47,428 nt of DNA from Bacteroidota bacterium (GCA_018266765.1 JAFDZU010000049.1:40404-87831), one strand, 5' to 3'; numbered from the stretch's first letter, positions 15,338 through 20,080 are shown. Translations and numbers: made by a program. Notes: generated by a model from the sequence alone, not told the origin.

Positions 15338-18300
15338 ATGACCATCGCACAATACATTGACAATATAAATGCTCGCTATAAACTCGGTAATGCTACAGAA
15401 CACACATTTCGTGGAGATTTACAACAGCTCATCGAAAGTTTAGTGCCTGATATTCGGGCAACCAATGAGCCGAAACGGCAATCGTGCGGTGCACCCGATT
15501 ATATTCTCACAAAAAAAGATATTCCTCTTGGATTTATCGAAGCTAAAGATATTGGCGATAAAGACCTTGAAGGCGCAAAGAAAACAGGCAACAAAGAACA
15601 ATTCGACCGCTATAAAGCATCATTAAACAACTTGATTTTTACCGATTATCTCGACTTCCATCTATACCGCGACGGACAGTTTATTACCAAAGTTGCTATT
15701 GCTGAACTTACCGAACAAGGCATCAAACCACTCAATGAAAATTTTGCAACATTTACCAATCTGCTCAAAGACTTTTGTTTACATATCGGTCAGACTATCA
15801 AAAGTAGTCAGAAATTAGCCGAAATGATGGCGGCAAAAGCTCGGTTGCTCTCGGAAATCATCGAAAAAGCATTGATTTCTGATGAAGAAACTGAACAAAA
15901 CTCGACTCTCAAAGACCAAATGAATGCATTTAAGCAAATACTTATTCACGACATTACACCGAAAGGATTTGCTGATGTGTATGCTCAAACCATTGCTTAC
16001 GGAATGTTTGCCGCGCGACTTCATGATAAAGATTTAGATACGTTCTCCCGACAAGAAGCCGCCGAAAAAATTCCAAAATCAAATCCGTTTTTACGAAAAC
16101 TGTTTGGCTACATTGCCGGACCCGATATTGACGACCGTATTAAATGGATTGTAGATAGTTTGGTGGAAATATTTTTGGCGTGTAATGTTGAGGAAATTCT
16201 AAAAAACTACGGAAAATCAACAAAAATGGAAGACCCAATTATCCATTTTTACGAAACATTTTTGAGTGAATACGACCCAAAATTACGAAAGGCACGTGGC
16301 GTTTGGTACACACCTGCACCGGTTGTAAATTTTATTGTTCGAGCAGTTGATGATATTCTGAAAACCGAATTTGATTTACCCAACGGACTTGCCGACAATA
16401 GCAAAACAAAAATAAAAGTTGATGTACAAGGTAAAAAAACAGAACAGGAAGTTCACAAAGTTCAAATACTTGACCCGGCAACAGGCACAGGAACTTTTTT
16501 AGCCGAAGTAGTAAAACATATTCATAAAAAGTTTGAAGGGCAAAAAGGAATTTGGAGCAATTATGTAGAAACGCATTTATTGCCTCGCCTCAATGGATTT
16601 GAATTGCTGATGGCAAGTTATGCTATGGCACATTTAAAATTAGATTTGCTTTTAACCGAAACAGGCTACAAACCAACAACAAACCAAAGGTTCAGAGTTT
16701 ATCTTACCAACAGTTTAGAAGAACACCACCAAGACACAGGAACACTCTTTGCAAATTGGCTCAGTACAGAAGCCAACGAAGCCAATCATATCAAAAGAGA
16801 TACGCCGGTAATGTGTGTTATTGGAAATCCACCGTATAGTGGAGAAAGTGCTAACAAAGGCGAATGGATAATGAACCTAATGGAAGATTACAAAAAAGAA
16901 CCGGGAGGAAAAGAAAAACTGAAAGAAAGAAATCCAAAATGGATAAACGATGACTATGTTAAGTTTTTGCGATACGGACAACACTTTATAGAAAAAAACG
17001 GAAGCGGTATTTTAGCTTTTATCAATCCACATGGCTTTTTAGACAATCCTACGTTTCGTGGCATGCGTTGGAACTTGCTAAAAACCTACGACAAGATTTA
17101 TACGATAGATTTACATGGAAATAGTACAAAAAAGGAAACTTGCCCTGATGGAAGTGCTGATGTTAATGTATTTGATATTATGCAAGGTGTTTCAATTAAC
17201 ATCTTTGTAAAAACAGGAAAGAAAAAGGCAAATGAATTAGGTAAAGTGTTTCATTTTGATTTGTATGGTAAACGAGAAATGAAATATGATTTTCTTGTTA
17301 GTAATTCTGTTAAAACTGTTGATTATAAAGAATTACCCAATATTGCGCCGAATTACTTTTTTATGAGTAAAGATTTTAATGTACAAAAAGTATATGACAA
17401 GGGATTTTCATTGTCAGAATTATTGTTGAAAAATTCATTAGGAATTGCTACAGCCAGAGATGCTTTTACAATTCAATTCTCAGAAAGAAAAGTAAAAGAA
17501 ACTATTGAAAAATTTTTAAATTTAGATAATGAAACAGCAAGAATTAAATTCAACCTAGGAAAAGATGTAAGAGATTGGACTATTGATTTTGCAAAGAAAG
17601 ATTTAATCAGTTCGGGAGTTGATTTAAGTAATTTAGTTAGAATATCTTATCGTCCATTTGATTTCAGATTTACATATTATACTGGGAAGTCAAAAGGTTT
17701 CCATTGCATGCCTCGTGGAGAAATCATGCAACATTTATTTCATAAAGACAATATTGCACTTAATTTAATAAAAGTTGGAAGAGATTTAGACTCAAATAAT
17801 TTCTTTGTAAGTAACCACATTACTGACAAAAGTTTAGTATCTTCGTTAGACAATAGCAGTTGTTTCCCTCTCTACCTCTATCCAGAAACCAACACCCAAC
17901 AAAGCATCGGGCAAACAGCAGAACGCACACCCAACCTAAACACAGAAATAGTAAAGCAAATAGCGGATAAGTTAGGTTTAACATTTGTCCCAGAAAAAGC
18001 TCCCCTCCTTTCGAAGGAGGGGCTGGGGGTGGTCGAAAGACACCAAATCAATAATCTTCCTTATTTAAAAACATTCAGGAAAGCCCTCAGAAATAATCTC
18101 ACACCTGCTGAAGCAAAATTTTGGACACTTGTTCAAAACTCACAATTAGAAGGTCGGAAGTTTAGAAGGCAACACAGCGTAGGTAATTACATTTTAGATT
18201 TTTATTGCCCGAGCGAAAAGCTGGCAATCGAGCTGGATGGAGAAGTTCACTTTAATGAAACAGCCCAAGAAAGAGACGAAGAAAGAACTTTGTTTTTGAA

Positions 18301-18961
18301 TTGTTTCGGCATCAAAGTACTGCGGTTTGAAAATAAATTGGTTTTTGAACAAACGGAAGCTGTATTGGAAGAAATAAAAACAAATTTTGGATGGAGTAAG
18401 AATACAACCACCCCTGCCCCTCCTTCGAAAGGAGGGGAGCTTTTTTATAATAGTACCAGTACTACGTTTGCACCAATTGATATTTTAGATTACATCTATG
18501 CTGTGTTGCATTCGCCAACGTACCGAGAAAAATACAAGGAGTTTTTGAAAATAGATTTTCCGAGAGTTCCTTATCCTAAAGACAAAGAAACGTTTTGGCA
18601 ATTGGTAAAACTTGGCGGAGAAATCAGACAACTACATTTATTGGAAAGCCCAACCGTTGAAAAGTATATTACGCAATATCCCGAAGATGGCGATAATATT
18701 GTTGTAAAGCCACGCTTCGACTCCGCTCAGAGTGACGGTTTAGGTAAAGTTTACATCAACGATACACAGTATTTTGATAATGTACCGCAAACTGCTTGGG
18801 AGTTTTACATTGGTGGTTATCAACCAGCACAAAAGTGGCTCAAAGACCGCAAGGACAGGAAATTAGAATTTGACGATATTTTACACTATCAAAAAATCAT
18901 TGTTGCTCTTTCTGAAACAGACAGGTTGATGAAAGAGATTGATAGTATTGAAATTGAGTAG
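15338..18961 (+). CDS. Single-chain restriction-modification enzyme (Type IIG/ISP-like)
   Basis: 1207 aa. N-terminal PD-(D/E)XK-like nuclease: GAPDYIL with D54, then FIEAK with E68 and K70. A helical connector leads to an adenine-N6 methyltransferase: KARGVWYTPAPVV (318-330), SAM motif DPATGTGTF (379-387) and catalytic NPPY (497-500). The specificity part has SYRPFDFRFTYYT (770-782), typical of Type ISP-like enzymes, and continues at FAPIDILDYIYAVLHSP (1044-1060). There is no helicase domain, so it is closer to Type IIG than true Type ISP. About residues 888-1035 are a foreign in-frame DUF559 cassette; residues 1125-1136 come from another genomic repeat. Without the cassette the protein is about 1056 aa. 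It stands alone, as self-contained enzymes do, with weak translation signals. Whether it still cuts or methylates cannot be told. Confidence 0.88.
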   Translation: MTIAQYIDNINARYKLGNATEHTFRGDLQQLIESLVPDIRATNEPKRQSCGAPDYILTKKDIPLGFIEAKDIGDKDLEGAKKTGNKEQFDRYKASLNNLIFTDYLDFHLYRDGQFITKVAIAELTEQGIKPLNENFATFTNLLKDFCLHIGQTIKSSQKLAEMMAAKARLLSEIIEKALISDEETEQNSTLKDQMNAFKQILIHDITPKGFADVYAQTIAYGMFAARLHDKDLDTFSRQEAAEKIPKSNPFLRKLFGYIAGPDIDDRIKWIVDSLVEIFLACNVEEILKNYGKSTKMEDPIIHFYETFLSEYDPKLRKARGVWYTPAPVVNFIVRAVDDILKTEFDLPNGLADNSKTKIKVDVQGKKTEQEVHKVQILDPATGTGTFLAEVVKHIHKKFEGQKGIWSNYVETHLLPRLNGFELLMASYAMAHLKLDLLLTETGYKPTTNQRFRVYLTNSLEEHHQDTGTLFANWLSTEANEANHIKRDTPVMCVIGNPPYSGESANKGEWIMNLMEDYKKEPGGKEKLKERNPKWINDDYVKFLRYGQHFIEKNGSGILAFINPHGFLDNPTFRGMRWNLLKTYDKIYTIDLHGNSTKKETCPDGSADVNVFDIMQGVSINIFVKTGKKKANELGKVFHFDLYGKREMKYDFLVSNSVKTVDYKELPNIAPNYFFMSKDFNVQKVYDKGFSLSELLLKNSLGIATARDAFTIQFSERKVKETIEKFLNLDNETARIKFNLGKDVRDWTIDFAKKDLISSGVDLSNLVRISYRPFDFRFTYYTGKSKGFHCMPRGEIMQHLFHKDNIALNLIKVGRDLDSNNFFVSNHITDKSLVSSLDNSSCFPLYLYPETNTQQSIGQTAERTPNLNTEIVKQIADKLGLTFVPEKAPLLSKEGLGVVERHQINNLPYLKTFRKALRNNLTPAEAKFWTLVQNSQLEGRKFRRQHSVGNYILDFYCPSEKLAIELDGEVHFNETAQERDEERTLFLNCFGIKVLRFENKLVFEQTEAVLEEIKTNFGWSKNTTTPAPPSKGGELFYNSTSTTFAPIDILDYIYAVLHSPTYREKYKEFLKIDFPRVPYPKDKETFWQLVKLGGEIRQLHLLESPTVEKYITQYPEDGDNIVVKPRFDSAQSDGLGKVYINDTQYFDNVPQTAWEFYIGGYQPAQKWLKDRKDRKLEFDDILHYQKIIVALSETDRLMKEIDSIEIE
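17994..18446 (+). mobile_element. In-frame DUF559 cassette with terminal inverted repeats
   Basis: 453 bp (151 codons) inserted within the specificity region of the restriction-modification gene. The ends are near-identical inverted repeats of about 38-40 nt (17994-18033 and 18407-18446), of which the outer 30 nt are perfect. Each arm is itself a hairpin with a 9-bp stem (CCCCTCCTT/AAGGAGGGG) and 3-nt loop. Between them lies a full DUF559 domain, a Vsr-like small endonuclease fold: LTPAEAKFWTLVQ, FRRQHSVGNYILDFYCP (D954), AIELDG (E965), GIKVLRFEN. No target-site duplication is obvious. The reading frame continues through both inverted repeats, so the cassette adds residues and does not truncate the host protein. 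Confidence 0.85.
18712..18737 (+). repeat. Genomic repeat fragment coding FDSAQSDGLG
   Basis: Contains TTCGACTCCGCTCAG, a close relative of the TTCGACTTCGCTCAG element embedded in the cyclase genes of this window (opposite orientation). Here it encodes part of PRFDSAQSDGLG between VVK and KVYIN of the restriction-modification protein, a hydrophilic loop. It looks like an in-frame insertion of an interspersed palindromic-type repeat. Confidence 0.6.
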
Positions 18962-18976
18962 AGTACAATTCTACTC
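18956..18976. terminator. Hairpin over two convergent stop codons
   Basis: GAGTAGA and TCTACTC form a perfect 7-bp stem with a 7-nt loop. The stem contains the TAG stop of the plus-strand gene (18959-18961) and the TAG stop of the minus-strand hydrolase (18971-18973). It could act as a weak bidirectional terminator, but there is no good T-run on either side. Confidence 0.35.
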
Positions 18977-20080
18977 TTGAAAATGCTTTGTAATCCATTC
19001 AGCAACTTTTTTGGTAGCTTCCTCGGTAAGCCAATGTCCGCATTTGTAGTTTAAAAACGAATGCTCTATTTTTTCATTTTCAAGAGCATTTTTATAAAGC
19101 ATTGCTGTTTGATACGGCACGATTGGGTCGTCGGTAGAATGAAGCAGGAAAACATCAATTCCATATCTTCTCAGTTCGGAATACCGTTCTAATACATTTG
19201 CCTCAGGATACATACTTGCACAAATTGTAATAACCGATTTATAGCTGTCGGGATGGCGAGTTGCCACAACATTGGCATAAAACCCACCCTGAGAAAATCC
19301 CATAATAATCGGCAACCCCGGTTTAATCGGCAGTACCTGTTCTGCTTCTTTTGTAACACTGTGATACCAATCGGCAGACGAAAAGATAACATCATCTTTG
19401 AGTGAATCGGGATACCCCAAGTCTTCACCCATTGCTGAAAGTCGCGGAGCAAATATCGAAGCAGATTCTTTGAATTTAATATACGGAGCTTCGGGACACA
19501 CTATGATAACATTAGATAAATTAAGCTGTTTAGCCCAGCGGAGAATAATGGTTGGCTCTTGACTGTTTCCGTGGAGCAGCAATACTAAATGGTATTTCTT
19601 TCGTTCGTCGTAATTAGGAGGATAGAGAACTCGGTACCGTCCGAACCGCTGTTGTGGTGCAAATTTAATCGGGAATTCAGCGGCTTGGTCACCATTTTTT
19701 TTCATCATCATTAGCATTTCATCGAACCCTTTTCGAAAGCGAATCGGAGTGAATGTAGTATCTGATTGAATTGCTTTGTTATACTGGTATCCATATTCTG
19801 CCGCATTTTGAAGTGTAGTGAATGCTTTTTCGTTTTGCTGAATTGTCATATAGCACCGCGCGAGAATCACCATACTTTCTACGTCTTTTGGATTAACTTT
19901 TACCCACTCTTCAAGAAAAGGAATTGCTTGTTTGAAATTTTTACTTTTGAGGTGTTCTTCGGCTCGTTCGCGGTAACTTCGCATGTCCGGCACAGCTTGC
20001 CCATACACTCTAACTGAGGATATTAGAGTTATAATAATTCCAACGATTACGGTAATTGTGAGGATAAGAGAAGTTTTCAT
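18971..20080 (-). CDS. Exported TPR plus alpha/beta hydrolase (putative esterase)
   Basis: 369 aa from the ATG at 20080 (MKTSLILTITV); the frame extends 12 codons further to a TTG, but the ATG start gives a normal signal peptide or anchor (about residues 4-27, ending near VYGQA). A short TPR-like pair follows (about 34-100: AEEHLKSKNFKQAIPFLEEW). The C-terminal two thirds is an alpha/beta hydrolase of the phospholipase/carboxylesterase type: LVLLLHGNSQEP (oxyanion region), nucleophile elbow GFSQGG with Ser263, acid Asp317/318 in HSTDDPIVP, and His349 in CGHW. All three catalytic residues are present. Likely periplasmic or membrane-anchored esterase of unknown substrate. It converges on the restriction-modification gene with only 9 nt between stop codons. 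Confidence 0.82.
   Translation of the reverse strand: MKTSLILTITVIVGIIITLISSVRVYGQAVPDMRSYRERAEEHLKSKNFKQAIPFLEEWVKVNPKDVESMVILARCYMTIQQNEKAFTTLQNAAEYGYQYNKAIQSDTTFTPIRFRKGFDEMLMMMKKNGDQAAEFPIKFAPQQRFGRYRVLYPPNYDERKKYHLVLLLHGNSQEPTIILRWAKQLNLSNVIIVCPEAPYIKFKESASIFAPRLSAMGEDLGYPDSLKDDVIFSSADWYHSVTKEAEQVLPIKPGLPIIMGFSQGGFYANVVATRHPDSYKSVITICASMYPEANVLERYSELRRYGIDVFLLHSTDDPIVPYQTAMLYKNALENEKIEHSFLNYKCGHWLTEEATKKVAEWITKHFQE

Follow-up and report, generated by a model that had tools for sequence, protein, structure and literature searches.

Background

The described systems closest to a palindromic sequence residing inside a protein-coding gene include the Rickettsia palindromic elements (RPEs), units about 150 bp long, with a conserved peptide and not known to carry a nuclease, which lie in frame in many unrelated genes and are translated without being spliced (PMC10969869). 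Here we analyze a stretch of 47,428 nucleotides from a Bacteroidota bacterium (GCA_018266765.1 JAFDZU010000049.1:40404-87831; hereafter the window), in which a DUF559 nuclease domain bounded by hairpins, termed the cassette, sits in the reading frame of a type ISP restriction-modification gene. It is likewise an in-frame palindromic insert in a protein gene; compared by description, however, DUF559 units differ from RPEs in bearing a catalytic-type nuclease, in spanning many phyla and in having matched hairpin ends. We propose that the window unit is probably one copy of an element resembling the repetitive extragenic palindromes (REPs), hairpin-ended, moved by its own Vsr/homing-type nuclease and lying in the frame of its host.

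A further comparison is offered by the REP-associated tyrosine transposases (RAYTs) and the REPtrons and REPINs of which these and the REPs are part. The likeness lies in GC-rich hairpins in inverse orientation around one mobility-type gene, in short gene-less pairs and in occasional intragenic copies. In contrast to RAYT, an HUH tyrosine transposase, the enzyme here is of the PD-(D/E)XK Vsr-like type, and many DUF559 copies lie in coding frames; the HUH transposase expected of a REPtron is absent, DUF559 being the enzyme between the hairpins. The CGTC REPs, which combine a CGTC tag with a CCA tail, have been reported to lack a dedicated transposase (PMC3733652), and several inner hairpins near DUF559 genes share both tag and tail. 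With regard to the enzyme itself, the nuclease is alike in fold to the EDxHD/Vsr-like endonuclease I-Bth0305I, whose catalytic domain is its second-best match among solved structures. I-Bth0305I is an intron-encoded homing enzyme; in contrast, the window cassette is associated with neither intron nor intein, with no splicing to restore the host protein. Escherichia coli YcjD shares the DUF559 family and the GC-rich palindromes, but is intergenic, with repeats seen on its 3' side only; BoxC, for its part, is a repeat of 56 bp in E. coli (PMC2267715). In Caulobacter, a Vsr-like DUF559 protein has been tied to DNA repair and damage (PMC12907096). No description of a hairpin-ended DUF559 mobile element was found in the open literature searched; of 14 papers there that mention DUF559, none deals with mobility in its title or abstract opening, and subscription papers and preprints lay outside the search.

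Results and Discussion

A hairpin-ended nuclease unit inside a type ISP gene

The features of the locus, all on the + strand and numbered from the first nucleotide of the window, are as follows:

15338..18961, +: host open reading frame (ORF), 1207 aa, a single-chain type ISP restriction-modification enzyme with a PD-(D/E)XK-like N-terminus, an N6 methyltransferase and an ISP specificity domain
15338..17998, +: host part 5' of the insertion, residues 1-887, from comparison with L178 and L180
17994..18028, +: 5' terminal inverted-repeat arm, 35 nt, whose initial codons GAA AAA are common to host and arm
17999..18451, +: proposed cassette, residues A888-N1038, not in the homologues L178 and L180
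18002..18022, +: 5' hairpin CCCCTCCTTTCGAAGGAGGGG, a perfect hairpin of the form CCCCTCCTT-TCG-AAGGAGGGG
18022..18034, +: inner core GCTGGGGGTGGTC, adjoining the 5' hairpin and kept as GGGG(G)TGGT in related elements
18059..18385, +: DUF559 (PF04480) domain, a Vsr/EDxHD-like PD-(D/E)XK nuclease with all catalytic-type residues there
18411..18445, +: 3' terminal inverted-repeat arm, 35 nt
18417..18437, +: 3' hairpin CCCCTCCTTCGAAAGGAGGGG, a perfect hairpin of the form CCCCTCCTT-CGA-AAGGAGGGG
18452..18961, +: host part 3' of the insertion, residues 1039-1207, the second half of the ISP C-terminal domain

The host is a single open frame of 1207 aa that continues through the cassette, and it belongs to the type ISP enzymes by its Pfam matches to PF18135 (305 bits, in two stretches) and PF02384 (40.5 bits). 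The ISP C-terminal specificity domain is split, with DUF559 (108.3 bits against a cut-off of 20.6) at residues 911-1015 and the second stretch of the ISP domain beginning at residue 1039. K887 ends at 17998 and A888 begins at 17999, which agrees with the residues 888-1035 given in a sequence-only reading of this DNA; the unit spans about 450 bases. The two arms are 97% complementary over 35 nt and are separated by 382 nt, the outer part of the 5' arm, AAAAAGCT, being complementary to AGCTTTTT of the 3' arm. The arm search, Pfam and the ORF together bear out the view in that reading that DUF559 lies in frame between inverted repeats, each itself a hairpin; its arm length of 38-40 nt was slightly long. 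The hairpin pattern recurs in none of 100 shuffles of the window and is found in the 3.7 Mb genome at these two places only. Both arms are open in all six reading frames, and the unit as a whole presents terminal inverted repeats enclosing an enzyme gene, as is characteristic of transposable elements.

As a separate observation, an AAGGAGG in the 5' hairpin region (18012-18032), eight bases 5' of an in-frame GTG, may serve as an internal ribosome-binding site for the nuclease; this candidate AAGGAGG/GTG frame is not generally kept in free-standing copies.

The same site in homologous enzymes is empty or differently occupied

Based on a comparison made at the protein level, the DNA being too diverged for exact ends, we observed that the homologues L178 (71% identical) and L180 (63% identical) are uninterrupted: where the window has residues 888-1038, ..FTNEK is joined directly to ETTANTFAPID in the former and, at the same point, to ESTKNTFAPID in the latter. 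L181, which shares the genus, also lacks DUF559 at that site. In L179 the host part is 70.2% (N-terminal) and 87.8% (C-terminal) identical to the window protein, whereas the DUF559 at the same site is just 37% identical, a contrast that is independent of the DUF559 tree. At this site L190 displays a pair of inverse hairpins without DUF559 and L189 a single arm. Furthermore, L159, with a host part 82-83% identical, carries a DUF559 cassette elsewhere, at a point that in window numbering lies between residues 368 and 369.

On a tree of 168 DUF559 domains, built from 107 columns and with soft individual placements, the ISP-borne domains do not cluster: six label changes are needed, at least four of them forced by well-supported branches. 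The tree of the host C-terminal part alone, with 14 rows, is too small for counting gains. The cassettes at the ISP site are accordingly placed by the DUF559 tree in what appear to be at least four DUF559 lineages, and the sequence relationships of the unit are those of a distinct element acquired on repeated occasions, not those of a conserved domain. The sequence-only reading had seen here a distinct, frame-keeping insertion and had suggested alignment with uninterrupted homologues; the empty site in L178 and L180, the unrelated nucleases at the same site and the close homologue with its cassette elsewhere all speak for that view. DUF559 as a conserved, repeat-less domain at this position was looked for among the homologues and not found. 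A simple conserved domain is rejected on the evidence of the empty homologues and the tree. The comparisons show a separable, hairpin-ended and nuclease-bearing unit that has arrived at this position of the gene several times and is located in the open host frame.

The hairpin ends belong to the element

Most DUF559 genes are intergenic and have hairpins converging on them from both sides, with a GGGGTGGT-like core on the inner side. In 80 of 107 DUF559 loci the inverted repeat at the flanks lies above the 99th percentile of control positions of the same geometry in the same loci, and among 14 DUF559 genes from alphaproteobacterial, cyanobacterial and deinococcal replicons nine have a repeat score above 20; at the Neisseria gonorrhoeae gene (L191) a flanking repeat was not found. 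Some hairpin-flanked genes lie within or beside conserved gene runs, namely sufB-sufC, paaD-paaZ and gatB-dnaG (L202, L203, L195), placed as if inserted; at sufB-sufC and paaD-paaZ the position is within an operon. The hairpin sequence varies between DUF559 clades. Among 77 intergenic elements, the more alike the nucleases, the more alike their adjacent flanks (rho 0.60, 0/500 permutations), a correlation not seen for DNA 700-930 bp out (rho 0.03, 80/500 permutations); as the flanks track the nuclease and the distant DNA does not, the ends belong to the element.

Where the arms are translated, the two stem halves match as CCCCTCC/GGAGGGG in 24 cases, CTCCTCC/GGAGGAG in 11, CCTCCCC/GGGGAGG in three and GCTCCCC/GGGGAGC in four, with one mismatched case; these counts are inflated by shared ancestry, yet each of the four classes keeps its own partner. 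This shows that translated ends retain hairpin pairing via compensatory changes. In-frame arms are open in at least four of six frames in 19 of 20 cases, as against 28 of 53 for intergenic arms (Fisher p 0.0007), in keeping with the earlier suggestion that the repeats are adapted to translation; the difference may reflect selection, or a filter that leaves only open copies in genes. The idea that six-frame openness characterises the ends in general was rejected, as intergenic arms are no more open than shuffles.

In-frame cassettes recur in unrelated proteins

Searching public genomes for sequences closely related to the window nuclease gave 79 loci, of which about 23 lie within the frame of a large ORF; since the search was for relatives of an in-frame copy, such cases are over-represented in these samples. 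The related genomes are mostly metagenome-assembled or drafts, with the key cases in complete contigs. The hosts include type ISP enzymes at the same site (L069, L072, L075), HsdM (L070, L071, L085), HsdS (L084, L087, L092) and two kinds of Eco57I-type IIG enzymes, each with a recurrent position. In nearly all the restriction proteins the translated arm text is recognisable, for instance SPPFKGGVPEGGGG 5' and PPRPADTPPLKGGEL 3' of the nuclease. Across the window's phylum DUF559 exceeds the Pfam cut-off in 220 of 395 genomes and, by our count in these genomes, 37 of about 150 listed best hits lie in frames of at least 800 aa. In-frame residence, held in the sequence-only reading to be unusual, is instead recurrent.

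Housekeeping and other in-frame hosts comprise leucyl-tRNA synthetase (LeuRS; L232, L233, L234), MetH (L235-L237), RecG (L250), a methylmalonyl-CoA mutase fusion, HsdR and an N6/N4 methyltransferase; reading of the sequence adds an AddA-like helicase, and PurL/PurQ and HemD with the domain appended at the C-terminus. Three genomes, of which one is a single complete contig, have just one LeuRS above the family cut-off, and in that LeuRS the cassette lies between model positions 233 and 239. Against the solved structures of Thermus thermophilus LeuRS and Thermotoga maritima RecG, the insert falls between residues 236 and 243 of the former and between 515 and 519 of the latter. The nucleases of LeuRS, MetH, RecG and the mutase form one clade with a common N-terminal text like Y.TADP..Y.LLK.

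Two further observations concern sequences beside or resembling the cassettes. Tandem direct repeats of the translated end with neighbouring residues (e.g. SLKGGELDVFATN) occur at L069 around 480-620 and also at L087, L088 and L091; recurrent beside in-frame cassettes, they possibly result from slippage or repeated events at the ends. Short in-frame inserts lacking a nuclease, in PurL of L185 (HPPAPSPGGEGEPG) and HemF of L187 (GGGGGRTRVIEKGGVIEKGG), resemble translated palindromes.

The nuclease is predicted to be active

All of 52 diverse sequences share the residues E26, D55, E66, G69 and H72 (numbered as in the model segment). The dN/dS ratio (nonsynonymous to synonymous substitutions) is 0.04-0.13 for most measurable pairs and 0.28 in one very close pair, several pairs being saturated; by these ratios the domain is under purifying selection. 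The AlphaFold model of the nuclease (pLDDT, the predicted local distance difference test, of 90.5) has as its top solved structures the DUF559 protein 3hrl and then I-Bth0305I 3r3p, with probability 1.00, E. coli Vsr being more distant than either. Modelling the insert together with the C-terminal half of the host gave a weak result (mean pLDDT 57.6), in which DUF559 nevertheless stands as a separate domain between low-confidence linkers. The nuclease is thus modelled as a PD-(D/E)XK fold with conserved acidic residues and a histidine; together with its conserved catalytic residues this favors the earlier proposal that the cassette places a second, presumably competent, nuclease in the enzyme.

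Gene-less copies, CGTC REPs and YcjD

In the genome G395 (L026, L033, L036, L038) there are four hairpin pairs in inverse orientation, 113-114 bp across and too short for a gene, which resemble REPINs. DUF559 is present in each of the 11 genomes that show the exact hairpin-plus-core pattern, compared with 56% overall, which is only suggestive since these genomes are related. The inner hairpins of L189 and L201 have a CGTC tag, A-T first stem pairs and a CCA tail; we regard this likeness to the CGTC REPs as a lead and not a test. CGTC REPs of the ATTCCCGC type were absent from the 14 loci of proteobacterial DUF559 genes, where other hairpins are present.

In E. coli K-12, YcjD (L257:1890-2455) is a DUF559 protein, and 3365 of 5426 E. 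coli genomes contain ycjD-matching DNA. On the 3' side of ycjD there are GC-rich palindromes, one of which is present at a median of 14 places per genome; this repeat is probably BoxC. A clean empty site was not readable in E. coli strains without ycjD, in which the entire left neighbourhood differs.

Proposed movement and alternative explanations

Our proposal for the element, whose individual movement steps we hold with less confidence than the element itself, is as follows. In its usual form, between genes, it would comprise a hairpin with GGGGTGGT core, DUF559, and a core with hairpin in inverse orientation. The nuclease may recognise and cut its own palindromic ends or the empty target, and repair or strand exchange would then copy the element in a homing-like or REP/RAYT-like manner. 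Some copies would come to lie in the interdomain linker of a large protein and be read through, the arms then serving as low-complexity linkers and the nuclease as one more domain that folds on its own; the cassette would be translated as part of the host protein, neither spliced nor bypassed. In linkers of multidomain enzymes an in-frame insertion would simply be tolerated, since the arms contain no stop in the required frame and the nuclease can fold by itself.

Several points weigh against this proposal. No movement has been observed, and we infer both the mobility and the cutting of the ends. No target-site duplication is visible at the window insertion, its homologues being too diverged at the DNA level, and we found no pair of strains that differ by the element and whose nucleotide boundaries are clean. 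In the window genome there are one strong DUF559 copy, a second, weaker DUF559-type match and no DUF559-less hairpins, and hence no sign of activity. About a quarter of DUF559 loci have no clear flanking repeat, and the DUF559 tree, with its 107 columns, leaves many forks unresolved. Finally, the LeuRS, MetH and mutase cassettes look like one old, vertically inherited insertion each, with moderate support for a single origin in LeuRS and MetH, and their repeats are partly decayed.

These old, inherited fusions are also what would be expected of an ordinary domain fusion, in which DUF559 was added once as a useful second nuclease for defence and the repeats are incidental. The purifying selection on the nuclease would fit such an origin, as would the many hosts that are restriction-modification proteins, where a nuclease could be useful. 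We nevertheless consider it unlikely: homologues are empty, at least four DUF559 lineages occupy one site, the 88% identical host carries a 37% identical cassette there, an 82% homologue has its cassette at another site, hairpin pairing is kept, and a restriction role would be senseless in LeuRS, RecG and MetH. A comparably low probability attaches to a passive REP-like element moved by another enzyme (e.g. RAYT) or by repeat recombination, with DUF559 as cargo or as a repair enzyme that tolerates or processes hairpins. The DUF559-less hairpin pairs, those of 113-114 bp in G395 and the one in L190, lend it some weight, as does the link of the Caulobacter protein to DNA repair and damage (PMC12907096). 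Set against it are the co-inheritance of ends and nuclease across genomes, the nuclease being the sole gene in nearly all units, and a closest functional fold, on the predicted structure, that is a homing endonuclease.

The cassette being tolerated in a sole-copy essential gene, with strong hairpins at both ends and a chance ..N|S.. at its C-terminal border, could also call to mind its removal at the protein or RNA level in the manner of an intein or intron, or ribosome bypassing. We regard this as very improbable. Pfam detects no Hint or other intein domain, the cassette consisting of nuclease and linkers only, and about 150 aa leave no room for one; there is no Rfam match up to E = 1 across positions 17500-19000 and therefore no known intron. 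On these grounds an intron or intein is rejected, in line with the sequence-only reading, which had noted no self-splicing motifs. In addition, the frame is fully open through the unit, which bypassing does not require, and the nuclease is modelled as an independent domain between low-confidence linkers.

Conclusions

We return to the element moved by its own nuclease and residing in frame. The observations point to a widespread class of mobile elements translated within bacterial proteins and apparently undescribed. A fuller version of this claim, which we advance tentatively as a serious possibility, is of an undescribed class crossing phyla, with REP-like hairpin ends, that combines mobility by its own Vsr/homing-type nuclease with routine, unspliced in-frame residence in enzymes, even in essential ones present as a sole copy. 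It would in this way build multidomain proteins, and it would supply the mobility enzyme for transposase-less REP-like palindromes such as the CGTC REPs and possibly BoxC. In-frame palindromic inserts are known mainly from Rickettsia, with no known mover, and a dedicated transposase is likewise said to be missing for the CGTC REPs; a family in which palindromes come with a homing-type nuclease of their own renders both questions of the mover testable, including in E. coli K-12, where YcjD is of the same nuclease family. Such elements would offer bacteria a route to gain whole extra domains, even within the only copy of an essential enzyme, and many proteins annotated as DUF559 'fusions' may be hosts of the element rather than functional fusions.

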